Below are positions 4,092 to 27,813 of a stretch of DNA of 33,914 nt, piece after piece. This stretch comes from Betaproteobacteria bacterium. GTDB lineage: Bacteria > Pseudomonadota > Gammaproteobacteria > Burkholderiales > SG8-41. How positions within the stretch are numbered: the stretch's first letter is position 1; each line of letters starts with the position of its first letter. The notes under the pieces are model-generated. The model searched no databases. It saw nothing but the letters and a program-made list of their open reading frames with translations, and was not told the origin of the DNA. The DNA lies in contig CANJQI010000001.1 of the NCBI GenBank assembly GCA_947476215.1, positions 93,260 through 127,173 on the forward strand. The letters are read 5' to 3'. Both the position numbers and the translations under genes were made by a program.

Positions 4092-5441
4092 ATGAAAAGA
4101 AAATATTTCGGTACTGATGGCATACGGGGGACGGTGGGGGAGTCTCCCATAACACCGGAATTCGTATTGCGGCTGGGATATGCAGCCGGAAAAGTATTGA
4201 CGCGTACACGCTCCGGGGGAGAGCGCCCGGCGGTGCTGATCGGCAAGGACACGCGCATTTCGGGATATATGCTGGAGTCGGCGCTGGAGGCCGGTCTGGC
4301 GGCGGCGGGCGTCGATGTATTGCTCGTGGGGCCTATGCCGACTCCCGCGGTCGCCTACCTTACGCGTGCATTGCGCCTCTCGGCGGGTATCGTTATTAGC
4401 GCTTCGCACAATCCCTACGACGACAACGGCATCAAGTTTTTTTCTGGCGATGGGGCCAAACTGCCCGACAAGGTGGAAATCGCGATTGAGAACGAACTCG
4501 ATCGGCCGCTCGCCTGCAGAAAATCGCTGCAGCTCGGCAAGGCGCGGCGCATCGACGATGCGGTGGGGCGTTATATCGAATTTTGCAAGAGCACGTTTCC
4601 GGCGCGGCTCGACTTGCGCGGCATGAAATTGGTCGTCGATAGTGCGCATGGCGCGACCTATCATATTGCCGGCCACGTATTTCATGAGCTTGGGGCCGAC
4701 GTCGTGGAGATAGGCAACAAGCCCGATGGTTACAACATCAACGCGGAGTGCGGCGCCACGCACCCTGCGGCGTTGCAGGCGGCGGTCAAGAAACAGCGCG
4801 CCGATCTTGGCATTGCGCTCGATGGCGACGGCGATCGGCTCCTGATGGTAGACCGCAGAGGCAAAATATATGACGGGGATCAGTTGCTGTTTGTGATTGC
4901 TGCCCACCGCAGAAAACGCGGTCGACTCGAAGGCGGCGTGGTTGGCACTCTGATGACGAATCTCGGCATGGAACACGCCCTGGGCCGGCTCAATATTCCT
5001 TTTGCGCGGGCGCACGTGGGCGACCGTTATGTTCTTGATATGATGCAAGCCCGCGGCTGGAAGCTGGGCGGCGAAAACTCAGGACATATCGTTTGCCTGG
5101 ATCAGCACACCACCGGTGACGGCATCATTTCCGCATTGCAGGTGCTGGGGGCGATACGCGCCGCCAATACGACGTTGGCGAAGGCGGCTGGCACGGTCAA
5201 GATGTATCCGCAGGTACTCGTTAATGTTCGCGCGCGGCAACGTTTCGATTTCAGCGCCGCTGCCAATGTCAAAAAGGCGCTTGGCGATGCGCAAGCTGCG
5301 CTCGACGTCCATGGCCGCGTCCTTCTGCGTGCCTCCGGGACGGAGCCTGTCATACGTGTCATGGTCGAAGGCAAATCGCGTGTGGCCGTGAAACGATGGG
5401 CCAATGTCATCGCGGATGCGGTCGCCAAAGCGGCCCCCTGA
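4092..5441 (+). CDS. glmM: Phosphoglucosamine mutase GlmM
   Basis: Interconverts glucosamine-6-phosphate and glucosamine-1-phosphate on the way to UDP-N-acetylglucosamine for peptidoglycan and LPS. It has 449 residues, close to the usual 445. The N-terminus [15 protein letters not shown] is the family signature. The phosphoserine loop is [16 protein letters not shown] with the catalytic serine at residue 105. The metal-binding loop DGDGDR lies in [16 protein letters not shown], the sugar-binding loop is GGENSGH, and the phosphate-binding loop [15 protein letters not shown] is near the C-terminus. An AAGGA ribosome-binding site lies about 7 nt before the ATG. It closes the housekeeping block; an unrelated arsenic module begins 71 bp downstream. 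Confidence 0.97.
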
Positions 5442-5475
5442 AATAAACTGGTAGGAGTGCGAAAGTACGCGGGAC

Positions 5476-5503
5476 TTGACATTAGGCTCATTAATTCGAT
5501 ACA
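5476..5503 (+). promoter_or_regulatory. Putative sigma-70 promoter of the arsenic module
   Basis: TTGACA at 5476-5481 matches the -35 consensus exactly. With a 16-bp spacer the -10 would be GATACA at 5498-5503, a weak match (3 of 6). Transcription would then start close to or at the ATG of the downstream gene (5513), implying a very short or absent leader. A prediction from sequence only. Confidence 0.5.
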
Positions 5504-5513
5504 TTTCGAATTA
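5492..5513. promoter_or_regulatory. Inverted repeat, probable ArsR operator
   Basis: Perfect 8-bp inverted repeat: TAATTCGA at 5492-5499 and TCGAATTA at 5506-5513, separated by 6 bp. It covers the predicted -10 region and its last base is the A of the ArsR start codon. ArsR-family repressors bind such AT-rich dyads across their own promoters, so autoregulation by the encoded N-terminal domain is likely (inference). Confidence 0.6.
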
Positions 5514-6352
5514 TGGAATCAAATCAGGTAATCAGGGCATTAGCTGCACTGGCGCAGGAGTCGCGGTTGGCGATTTTTCGTCTCCTCGTGCAGAGCGGCC
5601 CATCGGGGTTGACCGTCGGAAAAATCGCCGAGCACCTCAATATCGCCCCCGCGACGCTGTCGTTTCACCTCAAGGAACTGACTTTTGCATCCTTGTTGCG
5701 TTCGCGTCAGGAAGGTCGTTTTGTTTTTTATATGGCTAATTTTGCCGTGATGAATGACCTCCTAGGGTTTCTGACGGCGAATTGTTGCGGCGGAATTCCG
5801 TGCGCGCCCGCAGCTACCTGCATGGGAATATCTCTCGAAGGCGGTGAGCCCATGGACGATAAAGTTTTTAATGTAATGTTTCTGTGCACTCACAATTCGG
5901 CGCGCAGTCTGATGGCCGAAGCAATCATCAACAATCCTTCCGTGAATCGGGGACGGTTCCATGGCTACAGCGCAGGCAGCAATCCGCCTGGCAAGCCGAA
6001 TCCATTTGCCGTGAAGCAGATACGCGATGTGGGGCTGCCGGTCGACGGGGTGCGCAGCAAAGCGTGGGACGAATTCGTGAAACCCGATGCACCGCGCATG
6101 GACTTTGTGTTTACCGTGTGCGACAACGCCGCTAACGAAGTCTGTCCGGTATGGCCGGGCCAGCCTGTGACCGCGCACTGGGGATTGCCTGACCCTGCCG
6201 CAGCGAAGGGCAGCAATGCGCAAAAGCGCCAGGCGTTTGCAGAGGCGTACCGTAATTTATCCAATCGCATCCTTCTTTTTGCCAGTTTGCCCATGGACAA
6301 ACTTGATAAATTGAGCCTGCGGAAAAAACTCGAAGAAATCGGCCTGCAATGA
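5513..6352 (+). CDS. ArsR repressor fused to LMW-phosphatase-type arsenate reductase
   Basis: A single 279-residue chain joining a regulator and an enzyme. Residues 1-105 are an ArsR/SmtB winged-helix domain (LAALAQESRLAIFRLL; helix-turn-helix around LTVGKIAEHLNIAPATLSFHLKEL). A Cys cluster follows at C91, C92, C97 and C103. The adjacent CC pair plus a more distal Cys resembles the C-terminal As(III) site of Acidithiobacillus-type ArsR. Residues about 117-279 are a low-molecular-weight tyrosine-phosphatase-like ArsC, with the P-loop CTHNSAR (C125 nucleophile, R131), further cysteines C203 and C211, and the DP motif at D227 (GLPDPAAAKGS). Reduction of arsenate would yield the arsenite that releases the same protein from DNA (inference). 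The gene sits behind a strong -35 box and a dyad operator and overlaps the aquaporin gene by ATGA. Confidence 0.92.
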   Translation: MESNQVIRALAALAQESRLAIFRLLVQSGPSGLTVGKIAEHLNIAPATLSFHLKELTFASLLRSRQEGRFVFYMANFAVMNDLLGFLTANCCGGIPCAPAATCMGISLEGGEPMDDKVFNVMFLCTHNSARSLMAEAIINNPSVNRGRFHGYSAGSNPPGKPNPFAVKQIRDVGLPVDGVRSKAWDEFVKPDAPRMDFVFTVCDNAANEVCPVWPGQPVTAHWGLPDPAAAKGSNAQKRQAFAEAYRNLSNRILLFASLPMDKLDKLSLRKKLEEIGLQ

Positions 6353-6988
6353 CGTTGACGCGGAAACTGGCGGCCGAAACAATGGGCACCAGCGTTGTTG
6401 TTGGCGACCGTGATCGGATCCGGCATCATGGGCGAGCGTCTGTCGGGCGGCAACGTCGCAATTGCCTTGCTGGCCAACTCGATAGCCACCGGCTGCGCCT
6501 TATATGCTCTGATACTGGTGTTTGCCCCGGTTTCCGGTGCGCATTTCAATCCCGCGGTCAGCATGATCGCGGCACTGGGCAAGAAATTGTCCTGGTGGGA
6601 GGCAGCGGCATATACGGGGGCGCAACTTGCTGGTGCGTTCGTGGGAGTTGCCGCGGCGCACATCATGTTTGGTGAGCCGTTGTTTTTTGTTTCGCAACAT
6701 GAGCGGACCGGGGCTGCGCAGTGGTGGGCAGAGGGCGTGGCGACGTTTTGCCTGCTGGTGGTGATACTCGGCACGGTACGGCTAGGCTTGCCTGCGATCG
6801 CGGCAGCCGTCGGCGCTTATATCATAGGGGCATACTGGTTCACGGCGTCGACCTCATTCGCAAACCCCGCAGTGACGCTGGCGCGTTCGGCGAGCGATAC
6901 GTTTGCCGGAATTCGGCCGGCGGATGCGCCGGCTTTTATCGTAATGCAGCTACTGGGCGCGCTGGCAGCCTATGCCCTGATGAATTGA
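6349..6988 (+). pseudogene. MIP-family aquaglyceroporin (AqpS-like), frameshifted near the start
   Basis: Membrane channel of the major intrinsic protein family; in some ars operons (Sinorhizobium aqpS) it exports arsenite after ArsC acts. The ATG at 6349 overlaps the ArsR-ArsC stop and encodes the expected start MTLTRKLAAETMGT. The frame then shifts by one: the remainder (LLATVIGSGIMGERLSGG and onward) lies in another frame that begins only with a TTG at 6395 lacking a ribosome-binding site. Deleting A6391 restores one continuous protein of about 212 residues with the normal MGTALLLAT segment. Both NPA boxes are intact (HFNPAVS and FANPAVTLAR), and several hydrophobic helices are visible. 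Either a recent pseudogene, a sequencing error, or a protein made from the internal TTG. Confidence 0.8.
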
Positions 6989-7027
6989 CTGACGGAGCGC
7001 GGCACACCGCAGGCCAAGGACTGAACA

Positions 7028-8410
7028 TCAGGCGAGCAGCCTGATGATTTCGGTCACGTCCGGTACGTCCTGCAGCTGCAGCACCATGTCTTTCGCCTGC
7101 TCGGTCCGTGAACTTGGCAGCGGCGTGGGTCCAAACTTCACGCATTCGCGATAGCTTGCAACGACCTCTTCGGTCGTCAGCGGATTATCCGGATGTCCTT
7201 TTGCCGTCATGACTTTTCCAGATGTCACGATGCGGCCGTCCTTGAGTGTTATTTCGACCCAGGCGCCCTGTCGTCCTTCCTGCATGTCCGACTCAACTTT
7301 GCGCGCCAGATCGATATAGCGCTGGTCGCAGACGGCTGCATCCGTAAAATGCGCGAAAGAAACTTTTCCGTCGACCAATGCGCAGGCCACCGCCCATGGC
7401 AGGCTGAACTCGGTTTCGACGTGGTTGGTGGGATTCTTGCGCAGTTCCCGCGGTTCTACCATGATGGATAAACGTGTCGACCCGTAGACCTGGATGGCCT
7501 GTACCGTTTCAGCGCTTATGCCATTCTTGCCGCGCAATGCCAGCACCGCGTCGAGGACCGGATGCGCAACCACGCCACACGGATAGGCCTTGAAGCCCAG
7601 ACGCGTGCCCAAAAAGTTGCGCCCTAGGTCACGGGTGATCGCGTCGAGATCGATGTTCTCGCCGCGGAAAAACAGCGGGTATAGTCCGCATCGTCCGTTC
7701 AGGAACTGATGCACTCCGGTGATCCCCATCTTCGCGAGCTGCGCCGATGCAATGCCGTTGCGCACGCCGAATCCCATCTGCATACGGCAGCCCATGACGC
7801 CTTCGACATTCGCCTGCTGGCTACCCGTGGTCTGTGCATACGCGAGCCCCATCGCATTCATGAATTGCTCCTGGTCCAGCTTCAGGAGTCTGGCCACGAC
7901 CAGGGTCGCGCAGAATGCCGAAAAAACGTAGCTTGAAACCCAGCCCGAATCGATCGCGGTGGGCGCTCCGCACATCATGCGCGCACCGGCGTCGGTGGCG
8001 ATGGCGACGGCGGCCAGAAACGATTTCCCATTCATGCCCCCGGCCAGCTCCGCAAATGCAAAAGCGGCGGGCACGACCGCGGCACCGATGGCATAGCCGT
8101 GTCCCTTGTCCATCCAGAATTTGTCTTCAAATTCACGCGCTTTCGTGTAAGAGCCGTTCGCCAGTCCCGCCAAACCGGGCGACACGCGGTCACCGAAGCC
8201 GATCACGGTACATGGTCCGCGCCCGCCTTCCTGCCGGACAAATTCCGCGATGGTGTCTGAGCCTTCCGCACCTGCTCCCGCCACTGCCGTGCCCAGAGCC
8301 CATAGCACTTCGCGTCGTGCCGCGGCCAGTGCTTCTTCGGGTACATCGGAAAATGCGGTTTCGCGCACGTGCCTGACCAGTTGTTGTTCTATCGTCATTG
8401 AGTTTGTCAT
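7028..8410 (-). CDS. MmgE/PrpD family protein
   Basis: Member of the MmgE/PrpD fold (2-methylcitrate dehydratase, cis-aconitate decarboxylase, iminodisuccinate epimerase and many uncharacterised members). It has 460 residues, normal length. The family pattern is visible: an all-helical N-terminal part with REFEDKFWMDKGHGYAIGAAVVPAAFA near residue 90, a helical block containing AYAQTTGSQQANVEGVMGCRMQMGFG, and the C-terminal alpha/beta lid with KAYPCGVVAHPVLDAV and KGHPDNPLTTEEV. The substrate is not deducible. It is the last gene of the six-gene minus-strand run, 7 nt after the upstream Bug receptor, so it is probably translated from the same mRNA. Start 8410 is taken; an in-frame Met four codons later is also possible. 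Confidence 0.88.
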   Translation of the reverse strand: MTNSMTIEQQLVRHVRETAFSDVPEEALAAARREVLWALGTAVAGAGAEGSDTIAEFVRQEGGRGPCTVIGFGDRVSPGLAGLANGSYTKAREFEDKFWMDKGHGYAIGAAVVPAAFAFAELAGGMNGKSFLAAVAIATDAGARMMCGAPTAIDSGWVSSYVFSAFCATLVVARLLKLDQEQFMNAMGLAYAQTTGSQQANVEGVMGCRMQMGFGVRNGIASAQLAKMGITGVHQFLNGRCGLYPLFFRGENIDLDAITRDLGRNFLGTRLGFKAYPCGVVAHPVLDAVLALRGKNGISAETVQAIQVYGSTRLSIMVEPRELRKNPTNHVETEFSLPWAVACALVDGKVSFAHFTDAAVCDQRYIDLARKVESDMQEGRQGAWVEITLKDGRIVTSGKVMTAKGHPDNPLTTEEVVASYRECVKFGPTPLPSSRTEQAKDMVLQLQDVPDVTEIIRLLA

Positions 8411-8417
8411 GTGTGGA

Positions 8418-9377
8418 TTATTGCGAGTTCAAGCCAGCGCTCTTTATGATCCTGCCTGTGCGTTCCATATCGGCTTTCATGGCTTCGGCAAGTTGTGTCG
8501 TCGTGCTGCCGACGGCTTCTCCGCCGGCATTGAAGATTTTCTCCTTGACGTCCGGCTGATGAACGTATCGTACGATATGCTGATTGAGTCGGTCTACAAT
8601 GACAGCGGGCGTTTTTGCCGGCGCGAAGACGCCCGTAAACGTCACCAGTTCAAATCCGGGTAATGCCGCTGCCGCCATGGTAGGCAGGTCGGACACCAAT
8701 AGCGATGGCTGTGTGCCGGTAACCGCCAGTGCCCTGAGCCGTCCCGATTTCACGTGTGGTGCAACGGAAGCCGCGCTCGCGAACATGAGCTGAACTTCGC
8801 CGCCGAGCAGTGCAACAATCGCAGGCCCATCGCCCTTGTAAGGCACCCACACTATATTTACACCCGCCATGTCCGTGAACATTTGTCCCGCCAGGTGGCT
8901 TGCTGAGCCGCCGGAACTGGATGAATAGTTAAGCGTTGCCGGCCTGGAACGCGCCAGCGCTATCAGGTCCTTGACTGACTTGATCGGCAGCGCCGGATTC
9001 ACCACCAATATATTAGGCGCCCGATGCGTCATCGTAACCGGCGCGAAGTCTCTCACCGGATCATAGGTCGTTTTTTCCAGCAGTGGTTTGATCCAGAAGC
9101 CATTGTTGTAGACGAGCAGCGTATATCCGTCTGGTGTAGCCCGCGCAACAATTTCCGGCGGAATGACGCCGCTGGGTCTGTTCTCTATGATGATGGTCTG
9201 GTTCATGCTGGCAGTCAGCCCCAGCGCAATCAGCCGCGCGGTAAAGTCACCATTGCCGCCCGGATCCACGGTGACGATGCGTATGGATTTTCTTGGGTAA
9301 TCCTGGGCGCAGGCTGCGCCGACAGTTCCAATGATCCAGCCGGCCAAAACCATTTTTTGCAAAAGTTCTTGTGTCAT
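8418..9377 (-). CDS. Bug/TctC-type periplasmic solute-binding protein
   Basis: Receptor of the tripartite tricarboxylate transporter family, which delivers a carboxylate or related solute to TctA/TctB membrane partners. 319 residues. A signal peptide (MVLAGWIIGTVGAACAQ) precedes the mature start YPRKSIRIV. Family marks follow: RPSGVIPPEIVARATPDGYTLL, DPVRDFAPVTM, PNILVVNPALPIKSVKDLIALAR, LNYSSSSGGSASHLAGQMF, the WVPYKGDGPAIVALLGGEVQ segment and PHVKSGRLRALAVTG. No tctA/tctB genes occur in this window, so it is an orphan receptor. It lies between two MmgE/PrpD genes, which suggests that the ligand is the substrate of those enzymes or a relative of it (inference). Confidence 0.93.
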   Translation of the reverse strand: MTQELLQKMVLAGWIIGTVGAACAQDYPRKSIRIVTVDPGGNGDFTARLIALGLTASMNQTIIIENRPSGVIPPEIVARATPDGYTLLVYNNGFWIKPLLEKTTYDPVRDFAPVTMTHRAPNILVVNPALPIKSVKDLIALARSRPATLNYSSSSGGSASHLAGQMFTDMAGVNIVWVPYKGDGPAIVALLGGEVQLMFASAASVAPHVKSGRLRALAVTGTQPSLLVSDLPTMAAAALPGFELVTFTGVFAPAKTPAVIVDRLNQHIVRYVHQPDVKEKIFNAGGEAVGSTTTQLAEAMKADMERTGRIIKSAGLNSQ

Positions 9378-9407: not shown

Positions 9408-10808
9408 TTACGCCAGCGCGGTTACCCGCATGAACGGGAACAGCGTACCGAGGTTTTCCATTTTTTCCACATTCCAGATCTGATCCAGCAGTGTTTGTGC
9501 CCGTGCATGGCCGAGCACGGGTTCGACCTGCGCAAAAAATTTGGCTTCCAACCCATTATCGCTCATCGGGTTGCCCGGATGTCCTTTGGGATTGATCTCA
9601 TGCAGCGTGATCGGCTCTCCCGACGTCAATTCCACTTCGAAGCGACAGTTGAGTTCACGGGGAAACGAAGCCGAGTAAGCCGGGTCGCCCTCCATGTGTA
9701 TCTTCTGCACAATGCCAAGTATGGTCGGGTCACGGTATCGTTCGGGAGTAAAGGTATTTTTCGATATCGCGCCATCCACGAGCGCCGCGCCTATAAGATA
9801 AGGTCCGCTGTGGTCGGCGGTCTCCGCGCTTTCCGGCTCCCAGTATTCCGGGTGGGTTTCGCGGCTGACGACGGAGCGCTTTTCCAGGTACACGCGCAAG
9901 GACTTGATCTGCGCCATGTCCACGCGTTCTCGGAGCTTGATCGCGGTCCAGATCGGCAACTGATAGGGATAGCGCACGGGCAGGGACTTGAAGAACGTGC
10001 CTTCGATCTTGAACGGCACGTTGCGTGCATGCAGTGGATCATCAAGTTCAAAGGAACTGTTCAATTGCTTCATAAGCCCCGAACTACCTTCGAACACGCC
10101 GTCCGGTCCGGTAATGTCCCTGGCCGCGAGCATTGCTGCAAACAGACCGTTGCGGCTGCCATTGGGGCCGGCAAATGCTTTCCAGTTGGAAAGATGACCG
10201 CGCCGGGTTTCGTTGAGGCAAATATTGGGTGCGACCGCAAGTGCCAGTGCATTACCCAGCTGCTGTTTCGACAGGCCCAGTAGTTTTCCCGCTCCCAGCG
10301 CCGTTGCAATTGAGTGGCACATCGGGTGGTCCCAGCCTTGCGCGGCCCATCGCACGCGATCGGAGAGATGTCCGCATACCTCGTAGGCAATGGCAATTCC
10401 CAATAGCAGGTCTTTGCCGCCCAGACCGGCCGATTCTGCTGTGGCGAGTATGCCGCCGATGTTATCGCTCGGATGAGGACCGGTGTCGCCGATACCGCCG
10501 AAGTAATCATCGCTGAAGTCCAGGATACGAACCATCGCGCCATTAACGAGCGCGGCCAGATCGGGCGTTGTTCGTATTGTTGTGCCTATGATCGTGGCCG
10601 GCGCGACGGATGTGATTTCCGACGCGATCGCGCGTATGGCGTTGATGGGCTCGCAACAATAAGCTCCTAAAGAACAGCCGACGGCATCGACGATGCAGCG
10701 TTTCGTGGCATGCATGGTTTCCACCGACAGGTCGCTGAAACCGACGGTTGAAGCAAATTCAACCAATGTGTAAGTCGTCTTGTCCACGGGCACTGCTCCG
10801 GAATTCAT
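9408..10808 (-). CDS. MmgE/PrpD family protein
   Basis: Second MmgE/PrpD paralogue of the run. It is closer in sequence to true PrpD than its neighbour, with DFSDDYFGG followed by HPSDNIGGILATAE and the block NWKAFAGPNGSRNG. The C-terminal part has RYPYQLPIWTAIKLRERV and KGHPGNPMSDNGLEAKF. Start 10808 gives 466 residues beginning MNSGAVPVDKTTYT, a typical family opening. The frame is open further upstream to 10964, but that extension lies inside the neighbouring gene and is rich in Ser/Arg/Pro, so it is rejected. With this start it overlaps the upstream 381-residue gene by 50 bp; a GTG four or six codons in would shorten the overlap. Probable (de)hydratase, decarboxylase or epimerase of unknown substrate. 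Confidence 0.86.
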   Translation of the reverse strand: MNSGAVPVDKTTYTLVEFASTVGFSDLSVETMHATKRCIVDAVGCSLGAYCCEPINAIRAIASEITSVAPATIIGTTIRTTPDLAALVNGAMVRILDFSDDYFGGIGDTGPHPSDNIGGILATAESAGLGGKDLLLGIAIAYEVCGHLSDRVRWAAQGWDHPMCHSIATALGAGKLLGLSKQQLGNALALAVAPNICLNETRRGHLSNWKAFAGPNGSRNGLFAAMLAARDITGPDGVFEGSSGLMKQLNSSFELDDPLHARNVPFKIEGTFFKSLPVRYPYQLPIWTAIKLRERVDMAQIKSLRVYLEKRSVVSRETHPEYWEPESAETADHSGPYLIGAALVDGAISKNTFTPERYRDPTILGIVQKIHMEGDPAYSASFPRELNCRFEVELTSGEPITLHEINPKGHPGNPMSDNGLEAKFFAQVEPVLGHARAQTLLDQIWNVEKMENLGTLFPFMRVTALA

Positions 10809-11904
10809 GGATGGACCGCGCAAGCTTGCCATCGCGGGTATTGATTGTGCGGGTGATCGGCACGGTTTCACCAAACGTCGGAAAGCAGGCGGAATGCTTG
10901 CCTGCGCCACCGACCACGATGACCACGATGTGTTCCGGCCGTTGCACCATGAGCACGGGCGCATCCATGCCCGCCGTCGCGTACCGGCCGGAGAATCCCG
11001 TGCGAAACCGTCGCTCTATATTCTCTTTTGAAAACAGATACATAGGTAAGCGTGCGCGCTCGAACAGAAACTGTTTGATGCGCGCCTTGTTCCAGCCGCT
11101 GTGCGCAATCGTTGTCGCGTGTTCGGGGCACAAAACGACCAGCGGATGCGCGGCGTAATACATGTCGTTGGCACCGGTGTTCGCCATGGTCCCGGCAATT
11201 GTTGTCAAAATTCCTTCCGCGTCGCTGCTTTCCCGGTCATGCACGTTATGCGGACATTCGAGACCCATGACCGTCACGGCACTGCTCCACGCGGGGTGTC
11301 CCCGCTCGACTTGCAGCGGTTGCCATGGATTCGCAGACTCATTTTCCGCGACACAGTAGCTGTACTTGGCAGGTGATCCCAGCGTCGCCATGTCGCCCAC
11401 TTCGGGCACCGCGCCGCCGATATTGATCAGTGCGAGGCGTATTGCCCGGCCTATGGTCGCGTTGGCATGCTTGCCGGGTCCGAACGCGTTGTAACCGCTG
11501 TTGATGCCCAGCTCTTTTGCAATGGGGCCATTGACGATTACCAGCGGTGCACACAGGTGGGTAGTCGACTGTATGGCATTCAGGTTGAACGCGGGTTCGC
11601 ACATGGCCTCAATGGCGGTGACGATCACCGGGAAATATTCGGGACGGCATCCCGCCATCACCGCGTTGACGGCGATGCGCAGCGGTGTTGCGGGGCTGTC
11701 GTTGGGCGCGATCGTTGCCACGGGTGCATTCCACGGGCGGTCACAGTAACCGAGCATGTCCTCGATCCGGCGCCGCGTCGGTGGCACCACCGGCAGGCCA
11801 TCTGTCCAGCCACGCGCCAGGTATTGCGTGTTGATCTCGTCGAAATCATCCTCGACCTCGAGGCCGGCGCCAGGCTCGCTGAGCCATTCCGCCACGGTTG
11901 TCAT
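10759..11904 (-). CDS. Conserved protein of unknown function, coupled to the UGSC selenoprotein
   Basis: 381 residues from the ATG at 11904, which overlaps the stop of the UGSC gene as ATGA; translational coupling is likely. The frame stays open to 12051, but that stretch lies inside the UGSC gene, so the internal start is chosen. I do not recognise a named enzyme family. Visible features are an acidic N-terminus (LEVEDDFDEIN) followed by GWTDGLPVVPPT at 32-43, AVMAGCRPEYFPV around residue 86, THLCAPLVIVNGP around 118, NATIGRAIRLALINIGG at 148-164 and GSPAKYSYCVAENE around 184. There are eight cysteines (54, 86, 102, 118, 184, 217, 259, 340). No signal peptide or membrane segment is seen. The tight link to a predicted selenoprotein and the conserved-looking Cys/Gly blocks suggest a shared enzymatic or complex-forming role (inference). 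Confidence 0.85.
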   Translation of the reverse strand: MTTVAEWLSEPGAGLEVEDDFDEINTQYLARGWTDGLPVVPPTRRRIEDMLGYCDRPWNAPVATIAPNDSPATPLRIAVNAVMAGCRPEYFPVIVTAIEAMCEPAFNLNAIQSTTHLCAPLVIVNGPIAKELGINSGYNAFGPGKHANATIGRAIRLALINIGGAVPEVGDMATLGSPAKYSYCVAENESANPWQPLQVERGHPAWSSAVTVMGLECPHNVHDRESSDAEGILTTIAGTMANTGANDMYYAAHPLVVLCPEHATTIAHSGWNKARIKQFLFERARLPMYLFSKENIERRFRTGFSGRYATAGMDAPVLMVQRPEHIVVIVVGGAGKHSACFPTFGETVPITRTINTRDGKLARSIHEFRSSARGQDDLHIG

Positions 11905-12440
11905 GCTGTGTGGTTCCCAGCGATCGCTAGTATTTGTGGCAGTGCAAGCGCGGCGCGCGCCTGCAATTGTTCCGCGCTGATACCCGTTACCGGATGAGGT
12001 ATGACGACCAGGGACAGGCCTGCTATGCCGCGCACGCGGGCCTGCGCGCACGCGAGATGATGAAACGCGTCCGAACAGATGACCACCGCCAAGGTGCCGC
12101 GCTTTTGTACTTCACACATGTCGTGGACACTCCACGACGTGCATGATCCTCAATCTGCAATTGCAGTGATGACAAGATCGGACTGTGCCGCAAGTTCTTC
12201 CAGAACATCGGCTGGCGCCGCCGCACTGACGCTCGGCTTGCGTCGTTCGGTTGTGGAAACTACATTCACGTCGCGCTTAATGCCCATCGCCAGCAGGGCC
12301 AGCAGGGCATCCGCGTTTCCCTTTGAATTATCGAGCAGTCCGAGTCGCAGTCCTTGCCTGGAAACGATGCGCGTGGTGGTGGCCGCAGCGGATTTCCGTT
12401 CAGAAACTTCGACCGGCACGCCCAGCAGGATTTTGGCCAT
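11901..12440 (-). CDS. UGSC-family selenoprotein (in-frame TGA as Sec97)
   Basis: A 179-residue product if the TGA at 12152-12150 is read as selenocysteine; otherwise it stops after 96 residues. Codons on both sides of the TGA are in one frame and encode one coherent protein. The N-terminal part contains GLRLGLLDNSKGNADALL (30-47) and SDLVITAIAD (87-96), then Sec97-Gly-Ser-Cys100, then TSWSVHDMCEVQKRG and a C-terminal half ending at 11901. This is exactly the U-G-S-C motif of the UGSC family, known from metagenomic selenoprotein surveys and with CGSC homologues. The motif is a thioredoxin-like UxxC redox pair. A SECIS-like hairpin follows the TGA. An AGGA ribosome-binding site lies upstream of the ATG at 12440. 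Its stop overlaps the partner gene's start. Function unknown; probably redox. Confidence 0.86.
12114..12152 (-). promoter_or_regulatory. Sec UGA codon with bacterial SECIS-like hairpin
   Basis: On the minus strand the TGA at 12152-12150 is followed after 5 nt by a stem-loop spanning 12144-12114. The upper stem is a perfect 8-bp pairing, GTCGTGGA (12138-12131) with TCCACGAC (12127-12120), closing a GTG loop at 12130-12128. Below one C-A mismatch, five more pairs form (two of them G-U). The loop sits 20-22 nt after the UGA and starts with G, as expected for bacterial SECIS elements (small G-containing apical loop, about 16-37 nt downstream). Folding energy was not computed. Confidence 0.75.
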
Positions 12441-12538: not shown

Positions 12539-13498
12539 TCACTCCGGGCGTATGCCGGTTTGTTTGATCAACTGGATCCAGTGTGCGAGATCCTTTTTGA
12601 CAAACGCCCCGAATTCGTCAGGCGTCGTGCCGACGAGTTCGAGTCCCGCGATGACCATTTTTTCCCTGACGTCCGGAAGGTTGAGCACATCGAGAGCATT
12701 TTTGTTGATCTTGCTGATCGTTGCCCTGGGAGTGCCCTTGGGAACATGCACGCCGTTCCAGCCCAGCACTTCAAACCCGGGGAAACCGGACTCCGCGATG
12801 GTAGGGAGTTCAGGCGCGATGGTCGAACGTTGGGCGCCCGTTACCGCGAGAACCCTGACCTTGCCGCCTTTGACGTGAGGCATGGCTGTCGGTGCGTACT
12901 GGAACGATACCTGCACGTGTCCGCCAAGAAGGTCCGTGGTGGCCGCAGCCGAGCTTTTGTAGGGCACATGCACGATGTTGATGCGCGCCATGATCTTGAA
13001 AAGTTCGGTAGCCAGGTGCGGCGGCGAGCCGATGCCGGACGTGGAGTAATTCAGTTGTCCGGGTTTCGCGCGCGCCATTTCCACAAGTTCCGAAATGGAT
13101 TTTGCGGCCACAGAAGGGTGAACCAGCAGATAGTAGGGTGCGTGCGCCAGCAATATGACAGGCGCAAAATCGGTGACCAGGCTGGATGGCACATTGGCCG
13201 TGAATCCGGCGTTGATGGTGTGAGTCGCGGTGCTGATCAGCCACGTGTAACCGTCCGGCATGGACTTTGCCACAATGTCCGTGGCAATCGAGCCGCCGCC
13301 GCCGGGTCGTTGATCCACCAGCACCTGGTGTCCCCAGACCGAGCTGAGTTTTTGTGCGGCCATGCGTGGCAACACGTCCGAGCCCAGTCCGAGCACGACG
13401 CGCACTGGTCTGGCCGGAAAGGTTTCGGCGGATGCGGCCGCCGCCATCGCCGGCGTGATGGCGATCAGCAGGAAAGCCGCAAGGCGTGTCATGGTCAT
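12539..13498 (-). CDS. Bug/TctC-type periplasmic solute-binding protein
   Basis: First gene of the six-gene minus-strand run, 319 residues from the ATG at 13498, which has AAAGGAGG 6 nt upstream; the frame is open further back but without support. The signal peptide is MTMTRLAAFLLIAITPAMAAA with a Sec cleavage near ASAET. Mature family marks are FPARPVRVVLG, RPGGGGSIATDIVAKSMPDGYTW, SLVTDFAPVILL, LVHPSVAAKSISELVEMAR, YSTSGIGSPPHLATELFK, VHVPYKSSAAATTDLLGG and PHVKGGKVRVLAVTG. The usual GG(x)D binding loop is altered to GLGSDVLPRMAAQK, so ligand specificity may be unusual. It likely supplies the substrate for the UGSC/MmgE operon. The UGSC gene starts 98 bp downstream. Confidence 0.93.
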   Translation of the reverse strand: MTMTRLAAFLLIAITPAMAAAASAETFPARPVRVVLGLGSDVLPRMAAQKLSSVWGHQVLVDQRPGGGGSIATDIVAKSMPDGYTWLISTATHTINAGFTANVPSSLVTDFAPVILLAHAPYYLLVHPSVAAKSISELVEMARAKPGQLNYSTSGIGSPPHLATELFKIMARINIVHVPYKSSAAATTDLLGGHVQVSFQYAPTAMPHVKGGKVRVLAVTGAQRSTIAPELPTIAESGFPGFEVLGWNGVHVPKGTPRATISKINKNALDVLNLPDVREKMVIAGLELVGTTPDEFGAFVKKDLAHWIQLIKQTGIRPE

Positions 13499-13707: not shown

Positions 13708-14489
13708 GTGTGCTGGCAAACGATAACTGAACTTGGCCGCCAATCAATCCGTTCAGCGCAGGACCGCCGCCTTTATAGGGAACGCGTACGAGTAACCGCT
13801 GTCGCGGGCCTGACGTATACCACTCATAGATCTTATCGTAGATTTCTGGTATTGACGTGAGCCATGGATTTCAGAAGTTCTGCGGCCATCAACCCGGCTG
13901 CGCCAGCGGCGGCGGTACCATAGTTAAGTTCGCCTGGCCTGACCCTCGTCAACGCTATCAATTCTTTGACGGATTTGATCGGCAGCAACGGATGCACGAC
14001 GAGTATGCTGGGTGAGCTTCCTATCAACGTGATCGGCGAGAAATCCCGAAGTGGATCAAATGACAAAGTCTGTGTGTACCCGGAAATCCATAAATTGCCA
14101 CTGCATACGAGCAAGGTATATCCGTCAGGAGCGGATTTAACCAGCGTCTCTCCCTGAATAACGCCGCTCGCCCTGTTGTCGACGATGACCGTTTGGCCGA
14201 AGGCTCAGAAGATACCTGGAACAAAGAGCCGCGCGACGAGGTCAGTCCCGCCGCCCGTGCCGGCCGTGATCACACGTATGGGTTTGAATGGATACGGTTG
14301 AGCCGACCCTGGCGAAGCAGACTGCGCGCAAACGCAACCAACGCATAGCACCGCAGGTAAGAATGACATACGCGCGATGCAGCGCAGGTATCCCCGCTTT
14401 GCAACTAACCGGAGCAACATCTGCTTCCCATTCCTATTGGTCCTGAGAATAGTATTACGCGGCGTTGCGTATCCTGGTTGTATCGGCAT
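13708..14489 (-). pseudogene. Decayed Bug/TctC-type receptor gene
   Basis: Minus-strand remains of a receptor gene. From 14489 the frame reads through a signal-peptide-like stretch (LPAVLCVGCVCAQ) into PYPFKPIRVITAGTGGGTDLVARLF, then hits TGA at 14207-14205. The same frame continues with AFGQTVIVDNRASGVIQ, SAPDGYTLLVCSGNLW, DPLRDFSPITL and LNYGTAAAGAAGLMAAELLKS down to MAHVN. There about 60 bp of unrelated sequence and a stop (13833) intervene. VRVPYKGGGPALNGLIGGQVQLSFAS then appears in another frame and ends near 13708, with the C-terminal third missing. One nonsense codon, one small insertion and a 3' deletion make this a clear pseudogene. 13499-13707 holds no gene I can recognise. Confidence 0.88.
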
Positions 14490-17366: not shown

Positions 17367-18329
17367 ATGGCATATCGACTCTATGTTTTTTCAGTCGTTT
17401 TCGGGGTGGGACTGGCGTCTTCTGGTTCGGTGACTGCGCAACAGTACCCGACCAAGTCGGTCCGCATACTCGCGTCCGGGATCGGTGGTGCCACCGATTT
17501 CACCGCGCGCTTTCTGGCTGCGGGTCTTGCGGCCAGGGTAGGTCAGCCGGTGATAGTCGATAATCGGGCCGGCGGACTTGTGCCCGGTGAAATTGTCGCC
17601 AGGGCGCCCGATGCGCATACCTTGATGTTGACCGGCGCCGTGACCTGGCTTTCGCCCTATATGCGTAGCGATATGCCATTTGATCCAGTGCGCGATTTTG
17701 CGCCGATTACGCTGGCGGTGACGCAGCCCAACGTGATCGTTGTTTATCCGGGGTTGCCGGTCAAGTCCGTGCGGGAACTGATCGCGCTGGCGAAGGACAA
17801 GCCCGGCGTGCTGAACTATGCATCGTCGGGTAACGGCAACTCGACGCATCTCGCCGCCGAACTATTCAAGTCCAGGGCAGGTGTAAACATCGTGCAGATC
17901 AGCTACAAGCTGGCTGCGCCGGCCTTTACCGATTTGTTCAGCGGCAGAATCGAGGTCATGTTTCCGGTCGCGTCGGGCGCGGCGCCACACGTGGGCGCGG
18001 GCCGTCTGCGGGCATTGGCCGTCGCTTCCCTGAAACCCTCGGAGCTTGCGCCCGGACTGCCTACGGTAGCCGTTGCCGCCGGGCTGCCGGGGTATGAGTA
18101 CGGGTCGACGCTGGGGTTGTTCGCCGGCGCCTCCGCGTCGGCGGCTATCGTTAATATGCTCAATCGGGAGATAGTGAATCTGCTCACTGCCCCGGAGGCG
18201 CGCGAGAGATTCTTCAAGGCCGGCATGGATATCGTTGCAAGTTCTCCTGCTCAGTTTGCGGAGGCCATCAAGGTTGACATGGCGCAAAGCGGTAAGGTGA
18301 TTCAGAGCGCCAGCATACGCACCGACTAA
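17367..18329 (+). CDS. Bug/TctC-type periplasmic solute-binding protein
   Basis: 320 residues, opening the plus-strand catabolic cluster. The signal peptide is MAYRLYVFSVVFGVGLASSGSVTAQ, with the mature protein starting QYPTKSVRILASG. Family motifs: DNRAGGLVPGEIVARAPDAHTL (the usual PDGYTL is altered to PDAHTL), DPVRDFAPITL, NVIVVYPGLPVKSVRELIALAK, LNYASSGNGNSTHLAAELFK, VQISYKLAAPAFTDLFSG (a change from the common VPYKG) and PHVGAGRLRALAVAS. The molybdenum hydroxylase genes follow in the same direction after about 144 bp, so uptake of the hydroxylase substrate is a reasonable guess (inference). No TctA/TctB membrane genes are nearby. Confidence 0.94.
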   Translation: MAYRLYVFSVVFGVGLASSGSVTAQQYPTKSVRILASGIGGATDFTARFLAAGLAARVGQPVIVDNRAGGLVPGEIVARAPDAHTLMLTGAVTWLSPYMRSDMPFDPVRDFAPITLAVTQPNVIVVYPGLPVKSVRELIALAKDKPGVLNYASSGNGNSTHLAAELFKSRAGVNIVQISYKLAAPAFTDLFSGRIEVMFPVASGAAPHVGAGRLRALAVASLKPSELAPGLPTVAVAAGLPGYEYGSTLGLFAGASASAAIVNMLNREIVNLLTAPEARERFFKAGMDIVASSPAQFAEAIKVDMAQSGKVIQSASIRTD

Positions 18330-18473
18330 GCACAGGCCGGTCGCGCGCGTTCCACGCCAGTTCCGTGCTTAGACAAATAGGCCTCAAACGCATATCATAA
18401 CGGACATGGCAAAGTGTGCGCCCGATGTGGCAACAGCGCACCTGTAACCCGGATAGAACACTTCCCCCTTCAA

Positions 18474-20795
18474 ATGAGTGATACACATACTGCGAACCGC
18501 CGCGAGGATCTGCGTCTAATCACGGGACGCGGAAGATATACGTCGGATTGGAATTTGCCCGGACAGTTGCACGCGGCGTTCTTGCGCTCCGACCACGCGC
18601 ACGCCGACATCGTATCGATGAACACCGCGCCAGCACTGGCGCGTCCCGGGGTGCAAGCCGTTTTTGCGGGCAGCGATGCGCGCGCGGCCGGTTACGTGCG
18701 CTTTCCGCTGATGTCGAATTTCATCAACCGCAATGGTGGCGCTCCAATAAAGTCCGATCGTCCGGTGCTGGCGCACGGCAAGGTTCGGTTTGTGGGCGAA
18801 TTGGTGGCGATGGTCGTCGCGAAATCGGCATCCGCCGCGCAGGACGCGCTTGATGCGATAGAAATTGAATATCGCGATTTGCCTGCCGCGGCCACCATAA
18901 ACGATGCGCTTGCCAAGGGTGCGCAACCGCTGCATGCAGGCGTACCGGACAATCGCAGTTTCATCTGGGAGGCCGGCGATGCAGACGCCGTGGCGCACGC
19001 ATTTCCGGGCGCGGCGCATGTCGCGCGCATAGACGTAGTGTCCACGCGTGTGGTGGCGAGCCCGATGGAGCCGCGGGCGTATCTCGTCAGCTATGATGCC
19101 GCCAGTGACTGCTATGACTTTCATACCCAGGCGCAGGGCATGGCCATGCTGCGCTGGCAACTTGCGCAACTAACCGGCCTGCCCGAGGAAAAGTTGCGGC
19201 TGCACTTGTATGATGTCGGCGGCAGTTTTGGTCAGCGCAGCAGCGCGTATCCTGAGCACGCAGCGCTGATGATGGCGTCAAAAAAGCTGGGGCGGCCGGT
19301 GAAATGGGTGTCCACGCGTTCCGAAGGATTTTTGTCCGATGCGCATGGACGCGGAATCCAGATGTCGGGGCAGCTCGCCTTGGACAAGGACGGGAATTTT
19401 CTTGCTGCGCGTTATGATTTCAAATGTGACATGGGCGCATACCTGACGCCGACTGGCTGTTCCGGGCACCTGCGCAATGTCGCCGCATGCATGACCGGCG
19501 TTTACAAGACGCCCGCGTTGTACGGCGATTTCAGTTTGGTACACACCAACGCCGCGCCCATTGCCGCCTATCGTGGCGCGGGCCGGCCCGACATCGCTTA
19601 CGTCGTGGAACGGCTGGTGGACAAGGCGGCGGCCGATATGAATATAGACCGCGCTGAGCTGCGGCGGCGAAATTTCATACCCATGACCGCGTTTCCATAC
19701 ACGTCCATGACCGGTGGCGTCTACGAATTGTCGGATTTTGCCGGCTGTCTGGATAAGGCGCTCAAAGCCGCTGATTGGGCTGGTTTCGCGCATCGTCGCG
19801 CGGCGGCAGCGCGAACGGGCAAGCTGCGCGGCATCGGGATAGGTACTGTTATCGAAGGCACCGGCCTCGGACGCTCGCCGAGCGACCAGATCGCGCTTGA
19901 ATTTGACGCGCAAGGAAAGCTAACGCTGTGTACAGCCACGCTATCGTCCGGCCAGAGTCATGAAACAACATTCACCCAGGTGGTTGCGCAGTCGCTTGGT
20001 GTAGCGCACGAATTCGTGGGATTTTGCTCCTCGCGCCGGGACAACGAGATCTTGGGAAATGGGTCGGGTGGTTCGCGCTCCATGGTAGGGGCGGGCAGCG
20101 TGTGCCAGATCGCGTCCCAGAAACTGATAGCGCAAGCGCTTCCGCTGGCCGCGGAAGCGCTTGAAGTCGAACCTTCGCAGATCAAATTCGCCCATGGTGT
20201 CTTCAATGCCAATGAAGGGGGGAAATCGATCAGCCTAGAAGCGCTCGCACGCCGGCTTGCCGGCACCCATCCTCATCCGATGAACGTCCTGGCCGAGAGC
20301 AGCGTAGGTTCGACTTATCCGAACGGATGCCATATTGCGGAAGTCGAGATCGATCCGGAGACCGGTGTTACGCAAGTTGCGTCGTATTTTGCTGCGGACG
20401 ATTGCGGTGTGGTCATCAATCATAGTATCGTCGAAGGGCAGGTGCACGGCGGTGTCATGCAGGGCGCGGGGCAGGTGTTTGGCGAACATGCGGTATATGA
20501 TCGTGGCAGCGGCCAGTTGTTGACCGGCAGTTTCAACGATTACTACATGCCGCGTGCCGGGTTGATACCTGAGATCCGCATGGATGAGCATCCGGTACCC
20601 AGCACGGCAAATGTGCTGGGAGCCAAGGGGGTGGGGGAGTCGGGTTGCACGGCATCCCTGCCGACGCTGGTCAGCGCGGTGATGGATGCATTGCGGCCGT
20701 TGGGCGTTCCTGAACTCGATATGCCGCTCACGCCCGCCAAGGTATGGCATGCTATACAGGACGCGAAAGCTCAACAGAAGGTAAAGGCACATTGA
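18474..20795 (+). CDS. Molybdopterin-binding large subunit, xanthine dehydrogenase family (CoxL-like)
   Basis: Catalytic subunit of a three-part molybdenum hydroxylase, 773 residues from the ATG at 18474 (MSDTHTANRREDLRLITGRG, the family opening). The frame is open 20 codons further back without support. The active-site loop is AYRGAGR (A365-R371). Carbon monoxide dehydrogenase has AYRCSFR with the CuS-binding cysteine, which is absent here, so this is not a form I CODH. The catalytic glutamate is E722 in KGVGESG. Other cofactor-binding stretches are GGSFGQR (near residue 250), the segment GNGSGGSRSMVGAG and VVINHSIVEGQVHGGVMQG. The substrate is probably an aromatic, heterocyclic or aldehyde-like compound. 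It is followed by the FAD subunit after 1 nt and then the FeS subunit: an L-M-S order. Confidence 0.93.
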   Translation: MSDTHTANRREDLRLITGRGRYTSDWNLPGQLHAAFLRSDHAHADIVSMNTAPALARPGVQAVFAGSDARAAGYVRFPLMSNFINRNGGAPIKSDRPVLAHGKVRFVGELVAMVVAKSASAAQDALDAIEIEYRDLPAAATINDALAKGAQPLHAGVPDNRSFIWEAGDADAVAHAFPGAAHVARIDVVSTRVVASPMEPRAYLVSYDAASDCYDFHTQAQGMAMLRWQLAQLTGLPEEKLRLHLYDVGGSFGQRSSAYPEHAALMMASKKLGRPVKWVSTRSEGFLSDAHGRGIQMSGQLALDKDGNFLAARYDFKCDMGAYLTPTGCSGHLRNVAACMTGVYKTPALYGDFSLVHTNAAPIAAYRGAGRPDIAYVVERLVDKAAADMNIDRAELRRRNFIPMTAFPYTSMTGGVYELSDFAGCLDKALKAADWAGFAHRRAAAARTGKLRGIGIGTVIEGTGLGRSPSDQIALEFDAQGKLTLCTATLSSGQSHETTFTQVVAQSLGVAHEFVGFCSSRRDNEILGNGSGGSRSMVGAGSVCQIASQKLIAQALPLAAEALEVEPSQIKFAHGVFNANEGGKSISLEALARRLAGTHPHPMNVLAESSVGSTYPNGCHIAEVEIDPETGVTQVASYFAADDCGVVINHSIVEGQVHGGVMQGAGQVFGEHAVYDRGSGQLLTGSFNDYYMPRAGLIPEIRMDEHPVPSTANVLGAKGVGESGCTASLPTLVSAVMDALRPLGVPELDMPLTPAKVWHAIQDAKAQQKVKAH

Positions 20796-20796
20796 T

Positions 20797-21597
20797 ATGT
20801 TTGAACTCAGTTATCTCAAGGCAAAATCGTTGTCCGAGGCGACGTCATTCCTAAGCACGCACCCGGAAGCCAAGTTTCTTTCCGGCGGCATGACGCTGTT
20901 GCCCACGCTCAAGCAGCGGCTGGCGCGGCCCACGCATCTGGTCGATGTCAGCGCCCTGGCAGAATTGGGTGGCATAGAGGCCAAGGGGGGGCAGCTCGTC
21001 ATTGGCGCCATAACCAAACACTATGAGGTGGCGGCATCGGCCGTGGTCAGGAAGGTGATCCCGGCGCTCGCTTATCTGGCGCATCAGATCGGTGATCAGC
21101 AGGTACGCAATCGTGGCACGCTCGGCGGGTCAGTCGCCAATAACGATCCCGCCGCCGACTATCCATCGGCGGTTCTTGCGCTGAATGCGCGCATCGTCAC
21201 CAACAAGCGCGAGATCGCCGCCGACGAGTTTTTTCAGGGCATGTTTGCCACCGCGCTCGAAGATGGAGAAATCATCGTTCGCGTGCAGTTTGAAGTCCCG
21301 CGTCGCGCCGCCTACGAGAAATTCCGTCACCCCGCATCGGGCTATGCCATGACGGGGGTATTTATCGCCGAATTTGACACGGGCACGCGCGTTGCGGTCA
21401 CCGGCGCGGGGCCGGGCGTGTTTCGCTGGACGGATGCTGAAGCCGCACTCGCGAAACAGTTGGCGCCGGCGTCGCTTGAGCCGCTGGTTGTGGATCACAC
21501 CAACCTCAATCAGGACATACATGCATCGCAGGAATACCGGGCCAATCTGGTCAAGGTCATGGCCAAGCGTGCGCTGCAGAAGCTCCTCAACACTTAA
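20797..21597 (+). CDS. FAD-binding middle subunit of molybdenum hydroxylase (CoxM-like)
   Basis: 266 residues. It carries electrons from the FeS subunit to the physiological acceptor through FAD. The FAD-binding motifs are [18 protein letters not shown] near residue 25-42 (the AGGxS-type loop) and [20 protein letters not shown] around residue 107-126 (the TLGG loop). The C-terminal CO-dehydrogenase flavoprotein domain follows with [18 protein letters not shown]. The start codon lies immediately after the stop of the large subunit, so the two are surely co-translated. Length is a little below the 280-300 typical of the family. Confidence 0.94.
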
Positions 21598-21629
21598 TCC
21601 AGAATTCTCAATCGAAGATTGCGACCAAC

Positions 21630-22094
21630 ATGTCCAAAATAGAACTCACCGTTAACGGTACTAAACACACGCGAGAAGTCGAGGACCGCACACTGCTGGT
21701 AGACCTGCTGCGCGATCATCTGGGGCTGACCGGCACTCACATCGGTTGCGATACCAGCCAGTGCGGGTGCTGCACCATCCATATCGACGGCCGCGCGATC
21801 AAGTCATGCACCATGCTGGCGGCGCAAGCCCACGGTGCAAACATCGTTACGATCGAAGGCATGGCTCAGGGTGAGGAACTGCATCCGGTGCAACAGGCAT
21901 TCACCGACTGCCACGCACTGCAATGCGGATTCTGCACGCCCGGCATGATTATGGCGGTAGCTGCGCTACTCAAGGACAACCCAAATCCTACCGACGAAGA
22001 GATTTATCATGGTCTGGAAGGAAACTTGTGCCGCTGCACTGGGTATATCAATATCGTCAAGGCTGTCAAACAGGCGGCACAGACGATGAAGTAA
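21630..22094 (+). CDS. [2Fe-2S] small subunit of molybdenum hydroxylase (CoxS-like)
   Basis: 154 residues, a typical two-domain iron-sulfur subunit. The plant-type [2Fe-2S] cluster is bound by C40, C45, C48 and C60 ([14 protein letters not shown]47 is an extra cysteine where most members have Ala). The second, alpha-helical cluster domain uses C99, C102, C134 and C136 (QCGFCTPGM and GNLCRCTGY). It passes electrons from the molybdopterin site to FAD. It is 32 bp downstream of the FAD subunit gene. No maturation genes (CoxD/E/F/G-like, XdhC-like) are found in this window, so these must be elsewhere if the enzyme is active. Confidence 0.96.
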
Positions 22095-23212: not shown

Positions 23213-23247
23213 GTAGTCAAATTGCGAGTATTCGATAGGAGACATTG

Positions 23248-27118: not shown

Positions 27119-27508
27119 CCCGACGGCTATACGCTGCTGTTTGGTCTGCAGTCCACGCACGCCGTCAATCCGGCCATGTACAAAGACCTGCCGTTTGATC
27201 CGATCAAGGATTTCACGCCGGTAACGTTGACGGCTTATTCGCCGCAACTGCTGGCGATATACCCGGGCGTTGCGGCGAAAACGCCGCAGGAATTTATTTC
27301 GCTGGCGAAGAGCGCACCCGGCCGCATGAGTTTCGGTTCGTCCGGTACGGGATCATCACCGCATCTGGCGTTCGAGTTATTCAAGCGCGCGGCCGGCATT
27401 GATCTGGTGCATGTGCCGTACAAGGGCAGCGGGCTGGCGATCATTGATCTGATCGCCGGACAGGTTCAAGCCATCAACGGTGGCGTGGCGGGGTTCCTGC
27501 CCCACGTA
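27119..27508 (+). pseudogene. Middle fragment of a Bug/TctC-type receptor gene
   Basis: Plus-strand frame beginning exactly at the family motif PDGYTLLFGLQSTHAVNP (27119). It continues with LPFDPIKDFTPVTL, FGSSGTGSSPHLAFELFKRA and VHVPYKGSGLAIIDLIAG and ends at GGVAGFLPHV near 27508. There is no signal peptide, no binding loop and no C-terminal third; a stop lies just upstream at 27092-27094. After 27511 the frame enters the antisense of another Bug fragment. It is a fragment, not a functional receptor. Confidence 0.9.
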
Positions 27509-27791
27509 GGGTATAACCGTCCGGCGGCGCTTTGGCCACAACGTCAGGCAGAAGTGGCGTTGGCTGGTTGTCCACGATCAATTGCTGTCCGAAGGGCCCC
27601 GACATGGCTTGTGCAATCAAGCGCGCGATAACATCGTTACCGCCGCCTATGCCGGCCGTGGCAATGCGTATGGACTTGATCGGATATGCCGGTCCCGAGC
27701 CAGGCGTGGCGGTATGAGCGGTTGCCATGCCGCTGCACACAACAGTCAGTCCAACGACGCTAACACTTGCGAAGAAACGTCGCGGTAGCAT
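27507..27791 (-). pseudogene. N-terminal fragment of a Bug/TctC-type receptor gene
   Basis: Minus-strand frame from the ATG at 27791: signal peptide LPRRFFASVSVVGLTVVC, mature start YPIKSIRIATAGIGGGNDVI, then IVDNQPTPLLPDVVAKAPPD and GYTL at 27507. There it runs into the antisense of the plus-strand Bug fragment; the frame closes at 27474 with nonsense residues. Only the first third is left. It was probably once co-transcribed with the amidohydrolase gene, whose stop is 22 bp upstream. Confidence 0.88.
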
Positions 27792-27813
27792 AATTGCGCC
27801 GAGCGTCAATTTG

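Follow-up and report, generated by a model that had tools for sequence, protein, structure and literature searches.

A predicted UGSC-family selenoprotein gene with a constant partner, one of about 50 related copies in a betaproteobacterial genome

GrdB and PrdB belong to the glycine, betaine and proline reductases and, like the UGSC proteins treated here, have a UxxC(T) motif after a strand, followed by a helix and then by a G-(I/V)-P stretch. The UGSC family itself, its motif and its fusions have already been published from metagenome surveys; according to the available part of the 2008 survey, UGSC was fused to a domain named 'Unknown_1' (PMC2398784). In a census of 2016, 33 UGSC selenoproteins in 26 organisms were counted among more than 5200 genomes (PMC5029168, Table 3 and accessible text), which is about one copy per organism, whereas 50 intact copies were found in the genome described here. 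The largest reported bacterial selenoproteomes comprise 57 and 63 genes, all families together, as given in the accessible part of a 2026 review (PMC13188914). As far as the texts were available, neither an expansion of UGSC nor its link to TctC receptors was found in the literature; the figure of 63 goes back to a groundwater MAG study, which may contain such genomes. Nor does the accessible UGSC literature mention the constant partner, the link to TctC or the GrdB-like match of profiles described below.

The window is the whole stretch of DNA that was analysed, 33,914 nucleotides from Betaproteobacteria bacterium (Burkholderiales; SG8-41; assembly GCA_947476215.1, contig CANJQI010000001.1, positions 93,260 to 127,173). 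The features at the locus were as follows.

12539..13498, minus strand: TctC/Bug periplasmic receptor gene, directly upstream (PF03401, 195.5 bits; start inferred from the ORF)
11901..12440, minus strand: UGSC-family selenoprotein gene (predicted), 179 amino acids including Sec97 and Cys100
12150..12152, minus strand: in-frame TGA, codon 97, read as selenocysteine (54 loci of the genome, this one included, have TGA here)
12120..12138, minus strand: SECIS-type hairpin (predicted), 7-bp stem GTCGTGG/CCACGAC, 5-nt loop AGTGT
10759..11904, minus strand: partner gene, 381 amino acids, whose ATG overlaps the UGSC stop codon (ATGA)
9408..10808 (start approximate), minus strand: MmgE/PrpD-family gene, downstream (PF03972, 209.6 bits)
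8418..9377, minus strand: second TctC/Bug receptor gene of the same gene run (ORF and neighbour gene calling)
7028..8410, minus strand: second MmgE/PrpD-family gene of the same gene run (PF03972, 151.2 bits)

The UGSC gene, its in-frame TGA and the Sec machinery

The reading frame from 12440 to 11901 starts with ATG GCC AAA, and its product runs MAKILLGV...LVITAIAD-(TGA)-GSCTSWSVHDM...NHTA up to the terminal TGA. The sequence-only reading had described coherent coding sequence on both sides of the TGA at 12152-12150 and had placed this codon on the U of a U-G-S-C motif; both statements held, the position being correct, the joined product having 179 residues and TGA occurring at the same codon at 54 places in the genome. 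With the standard code (table 11) the ORF ended at this TGA and comprised 96 amino acids (12440..12150), which is the fragment expected from standard annotation. The assignment to the UGSC family was confirmed by scores above both cut-offs, as the 179-residue product reached 157.3 bits with PF24696 (residues 9-173, cut-off 25) and 141.5 bits with NF041046, 'UGSC family (seleno)protein' (cut-off 125), and it shares sequence, motif, length and Sec site with the published family. The limits 11901-12440 were right for the UGSC gene but too narrow for the functional unit, which takes in at least the overlapping partner gene (11904..10759, minus strand).

The expectation that homologues keep Sec or Cys at this position was borne out in all 97 aligned UGSC domains, which comprised 50 intact copies from the own genome and 47 domains from named genomes (U written as C). 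The second Cys of UxxC was present in 97 of 97 as well. This alignment omits the two Sec-less fusions, which were included only in alignment A1, as well as the four damaged TGA copies and the two TGA-less partial matches, which were left out of all domain alignments. In the 47 homologous domains, from 45 loci of named genomes, the codon is Cys; the scan that fetched these loci searched for Cys at the site and gives no Cys frequency. Chance was excluded as the origin of the in-frame TGA because of the 54 copies with TGA at the same codon and the Cys in 47 homologous domains. The UxxC pair is plausible as a putative redox active site.

The genome (5.75 Mb in 326 contigs; completeness 98.46%, contamination 1.17%) also contains the complete set of Sec genes on which the sequence-only reading had depended. 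The genes selA (584 bits) and selB (446 bits) lie next to each other on contig C221, which also carries tRNA-Sec (74.1 bits with Rfam; anticodon tca, i.e. UCA, by ARAGORN), and selD (424 bits) has its own in-frame TGA in GGGUGCK. Among 60 genomes, the own one and its relatives, selA was above the cut-off in 35 of 39 genomes with UGSC versus 5 of 21 without (Fisher p 4e-7). The exceptions among the UGSC genomes were G400 and G431, with weak partial matches, and G409 and G423, with none; all four are 88-92% complete.

Shortly behind the TGA the sequence can form a hairpin, which in the window starts at base 15, counting from the T of the TGA. In the class of the window copy it reads GUCGUGG-AGUGU-CCACGAC, and in the large fused class GCCCGC-CGUGUU-GCGGGC, where other amino acids are encoded. 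A stem at base 15 was present in 49 of 54 copies, in 30 of them with at least 6 of 7 pairs and in 19 with at least 5 of 6, and all 54 copies had GU within bases 20-27, the loop region. The 36 bases after the TGA fold more stably than sequences with shuffled synonymous codons (mean z -1.77), with 29 of 54 copies at or below the 5% tail. Six control windows elsewhere in the same genes had mean z values of -0.09 to 0.05 (0 to 4 copies at the tail, of 49 to 54), and the 47 Cys homologues one of -0.53 (2 of 47 at the tail). The p value for the hairpin, 2e-4, overstates the case because the copies are related. The outermost pair, 15-33, was G-C in 21, A-T in 5, G-T in 2 and A-C in none of 28 copies, and both of its sides are third codon positions. 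Judged by hairpin and covariation, the structure just after the UGA is a predicted bacterial SECIS; Rfam at gathering scores gave no match over the window.

Taken from these sequence signals, the gene almost certainly makes a selenoprotein: SelB with Sec-tRNA(UCA) would read the UGA at 12152-12150 as Sec, helped by the hairpin. That the TGA is a true stop, the gene being a pseudogene or carrying a sequencing error, is so improbable as to be negligible. Nothing except the codon itself speaks for a stop, while 51 of the 54 same-codon copies have no further internal stop in the matched stretch and both the Sec machinery and the hairpin are present.

Copy number of the UGSC genes and the constant partner

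A Pfam search of the own genome gave 58 UGSC matches. TGA was present at the same codon in 54 of these, in 51 as the sole stop of the matched stretch, and the motifs were UGSC (31), UGGC (12), UGAC (7), UGTC (3) and UESC (1). Fifty copies were counted as intact: 33 lie in long fused frames and 17 stand alone, among the latter C104, which is cut by a contig end. The remaining TGA copies (C307, C45, C7 and C37) are damaged or partial. Four matches lack the TGA, namely two partial ones and two full fusions (C76 and C80) with neither Sec nor the second Cys. UGSC-partner fusions with CNAGITQPT at the site, without Sec or Cys and with a well preserved partner part, were read at L080 (5209-6906) and L081 (5268-6998).

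The identity among the 50 domains was at most 71%, with a median of 26%, so that they are old paralogues rather than strain variants. The same values argue against an artefact of a mixed assembly, in which several strains would have been binned as one. Such an artefact would fit a draft genome of 326 contigs, and the available part of the 2026 review warns of it for a selenoprotein-rich MAG (PMC13188914), but it is very improbable in view of the low contamination, the single selA match and the copy numbers of other genomes: 21 matches were obtained in G418, a genome of about 30 contigs with completeness 100, and each of the 35 family members examined besides the own genome had 2-31 UGSC matches, fragments counted. 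Each UGSC row of the same-family relatives had one TGA among the matches listed. Of 399 genomes sampled across the order, 44 had a match, 41 of them above the cut-off and including four further family members, and every row had one TGA among the matches listed. Of 398 genomes sampled from the phylum, 5 had a match; one of these was the own genome, and another, G143, was without TGA. For both samples eight candidates were scored per genome.

In a midpoint-rooted tree of 117 domains, for which support is limited on such short domains, the Cys versions formed six separate groups among the Sec versions, and Sec and Cys have probably been exchanged more than once. The tree took 20 of several hundred copies from relatives, so that counts of nearest neighbours lean to the own genome. 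Among the domains sampled, the one closest to the window copy came from another family (G437) and not from the own genome; the radiation would therefore be at least partly older than the genus.

The 381-residue partner had no Pfam or NCBIfam match to E 10. It was found with all 50 intact copies: in 33 it forms the C-terminal part of a fusion, the one at C14:37541 being recognized from the alignment, and in 17 it is encoded by an adjacent gene, up- or downstream, of equal orientation. Beside the motif protein of the named Cys loci it was present in 44 of 45 cases, at a distance of at most 423 bases, and the sole locus without it (L127) lies at a contig end. The Cys loci come from Sphingomonadales, Alcaligenaceae, Actinomycetota and haloarchaea, among others. 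Conserved residues of the partner, each shared by at least 101 of 102 rows, are among others Asp21, Gly22, Ala64, Asn66, Gly71, Gly138, Arg139 and Glu173 (numbering of the window row). The 'Unknown_1' domain of the 2008 survey may be the same domain. UGSC and the 381-residue partner very likely make up a two-part enzyme, of which UGSC is one subunit or, in most paralogues, one domain.

Gene neighbourhood and TctC/Bug receptors

Because of their tight spacing, we infer that the six genes for TctC, UGSC, partner, MmgE/PrpD, TctC and MmgE/PrpD form one operon. TctC was the immediate neighbour, the partner being skipped, at 37 of 50 testable UGSC places versus 64 of 266 non-TctC control genes (p 2.7e-11). 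The controls were 20 regions of 20 kb from contigs without UGSC; 8 of the 58 UGSC places were dropped, as the neighbour lay beyond the stretch, and damaged and Sec-less places were included. As genes were called by a crude procedure (longest ORF, GC3 weighting), the neighbour counts are approximate. In a direct TctC search 150 of 995 first-look candidates were scored, and all 150 matched. Of these best-scoring 150 genes, 4 lay within 1.5 kb of UGSC (4.3 expected), 10 within 2.5 kb (6.9 expected, p 0.16) and 18 within 4 kb (10.4 expected, p 0.016). The linkage of TctC and UGSC was seen only in the neighbour test against the sampled control regions.

The control regions (L168-L187) contained 49 TctC genes per 400 kb, which corresponds to about 700 in the genome if they are representative. 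The massive TctC expansion is shared with Rhodoplanes sp. Z2-YC6860, for which the available text gives 434 TctC/Bug receptors (PMC5994714) against the approximately 700 extrapolated here; no word starting with 'selen' occurs in the main text of that paper. Further TctC/Bug genes were located in the window at 17367-18329 and 23245-24225. At 13833-14489 and 27176-27809 TctC pieces in broken frames were recognized by eye, and the stretch 27176-27628 was called TctC in the neighbour analysis.

Among 91 other near neighbours at the own loci (TctC and ORFs of less than 180 amino acids excluded), MmgE/PrpD occurred 14 times and CoA-transferase III 5 times. Among 91 neighbour ORFs at the Cys loci, picked by hand from 227 ORFs, there were 15 LysR and 8 CoA-transferase III genes. 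In Bordetella sp. BOR01 (L112) the gene order around the Cys version is LysR (opposite strand), partner, CGSC, CoA-transferase III, TctC and a Pyr_redox_2 flavoprotein, the last being the third gene behind CGSC; between selB and tRNA-Sec of the own genome there is also a Pyr_redox_2 flavoprotein. These flavoproteins, which are labelled 'thioredoxin-reductase-like' here, hint by their positions at an electron donor.

As TctC adjoins most testable copies, UGSC and its partner could, instead of being a catabolic enzyme, serve for sensing or binding and cooperate with the Bug receptors, either in signalling or in the handling of a toxic element. The two paralogues that keep the partner without Sec or Cys, and the LysR and TetR regulators near Cys loci, would be consistent with such a role. 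The neighbouring MmgE/PrpD, CoA-transferase III, acyl-CoA dehydrogenase and thiolase genes are catabolic, however, and the cost of Sec in 50 genes suggests catalysis, so that a module of this kind is quite unlikely. A catabolic enzyme is the preferred reading.

Two further groups of genes were observed in the window. At 5513-6988 an ArsR-type regulator carries a fused low-molecular-weight phosphatase (ArsC-like) domain and is followed by a major intrinsic protein channel, which looks like an arsenic unit. A molybdenum hydroxylase set is located at 18414-22094, its large subunit being recognized by Pfam and the medium and small subunits by eye.

Fold, kinship with GrdB and possible reaction

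Models were calculated with AlphaFold2 for a natural UGSC-partner fusion (pLDDT 89.9, pTM 0.90) and for the window protein (90.1 and 0.83). In the models of the UGSC domain strand and helix alternate five times, and the motif is located between the third strand and the next helix. The Sec domain is accordingly modelled as a Rossmann-like alpha/beta domain. Foldseek with the fusion model gave nothing at E 0.001, while UGSC alone gave 21 weak, mixed alpha/beta matches, none of them decisive; receiver, TIR, RecJ, FtsZ, lumazine synthase, B12-binding and flavodiiron structures and a chain of the MCR activation complex were among the structural matches. Sequence searches of the PDB with UGSC, the partner, the fusion profile and the GRDB profile yielded nothing convincing.

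A thioredoxin-fold oxidoreductase for housekeeping redox control was the view of the authors of the 2008 survey in the part available (PMC2398784), and the UxxC motif, with Sec or Cys and the second Cys in 97 of 97 domains each, agrees with it. In both models, however, strands and helices alternate regularly and the motif follows the third strand, an arrangement of Rossmann-like or flavodoxin-like domains, and various common alpha/beta folds appear among the structural matches. The presence of about 50 divergent paralogues, all with the one partner, also looks more like substrate diversity. A thioredoxin-fold protein is therefore considered rather unlikely, and a relationship to the reductases of the GrdB type is preferred.

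The latter relationship was assessed with hhalign, using a GRDB profile of the Sec regions from the own genome and its relatives, from which one row with masked bases (L156) was dropped. For the 97 UGSC rows and this GRDB Sec region the probability of a match was 90.8% (pairwise E 1.2e-6), and the two Sec columns were aligned with each other. Forty column-shuffled decoys reached at most 2.4%, and 21 other ORF clusters, some of which are antisense shadows (24 clusters minus three UGSC fragments), at most 1.2%. When the five motif columns were masked on both sides, the value decreased to 32% and the aligned stretch began after the motif. The GrdB type alone gave 83.5% and the short PrdB-like class alone 12%; the 35 fusions gave 93.5% and the 17 stand-alone copies 39% and 48%. 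On the window protein the NCBIfam GrdB model hit the same stretch weakly (11.6 bits, E 0.09) and was slightly outscored by two unrelated NCBIfam models (17.4 and 16.2 bits), while Pfam GRDB (PF07355) gave no match and hmmscan to E 10 listed UGSC only. The kinship therefore rests largely on the motif. From these profile comparisons a remote kinship between the Sec domains of UGSC and of GrdB/PrdB is likely, though not proven.

GrdB and PrdB work with a pyruvoyl subunit, GrdE or PrdA, whereas the window partner matched neither PF09338 nor any other Pfam family to E 10. The only PF09338 match of the genome is on contig C148 (L163), where a GrdB-like selenoprotein gene (UGTC) directly precedes a GrdE-like PF09338 gene at 4943-7551. 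A pair of the glycine-reductase type is thus present in addition to the UGSC set.

Because the Sec domain is probably a remote relative of GrdB/PrdB, the reaction ranked first is the reductive cleavage of a C-N, C-O or C-X bond, an assignment by analogy that is made tentatively. The partner would bind the substrate, the Sec97 selenolate of the UGSC domain would attack it, and Cys100 would be the resolving thiol for a selenenyl sulfide. NAD(P)H would reset the Sec97/Cys100 pair via a thioredoxin-reductase-like flavoprotein. The likeness to GrdB/PrdB would be one of working, not of membership. The approximately 50 versions of the enzyme, most of them adjoining TctC/Bug binding proteins, might each act on a different carboxylic acid or CoA ester, carboxylates being suggested by the neighbours only. 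Against a Sec-dependent enzyme are the fusion paralogues C76 and C80, without Sec or Cys at the site. On balance, we regard it as somewhat probable that the locus belongs to a set of Sec-decoded UGSC and partner enzymes for carboxylates with GrdB-like chemistry. A bolder reading, which may well be wrong, is that UGSC and its partner are a new class of selenium-dependent reductases. This class would be remote kin of GrdB/PrdB, although its partner is another one, and within a single genome of an uncultured, betaproteobacterium-like family it would have diversified into about 50 substrate-specific enzymes, matched to hundreds of Bug receptors. If this is true, one enzyme family would place the organism among those richest in selenoproteins so far known.

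The 50 intact UGSC genes, SelD and two GRDB-type genes that were read, these families alone being counted, come close to the bacterial maxima of 57 and 63 in the accessible text of the 2026 review (PMC13188914), and the number grows here through a single enzyme family that has radiated. In environmental DNA the UGSC selenoprotein family is common. The 2 to about 50 copies per family member, the constant partner, the adjoining receptors and the cultured relatives with Cys versions provide handles on its function. The approximately 50 UGSC genes with their partner are perhaps a large, unstudied set of selenium enzymes for the breakdown of organic acids.

With the standard code, all GRDB genes that were read (13 from relatives and the own ones on C148 and C52) terminate at a TGA, from which the frame continues as U-G-T-C, U-G-T-S or U-P-N-C. 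Two GrdB-like genes from two relatives (L147 and L148) have U-G-T-S, without the second Cys. A second GRDB class has about 160 residues up to VLLTPV-U-PNCTC or a similar sequence and then about 250 more; the ORFs read also end at the TGA in the standard code. This class was found at about 7690-8910 of L086 (contig C52), at 17647-18000 of contig C99 and in the relatives' loci L152-L160 and L162, and many relatives have one or two copies of it.
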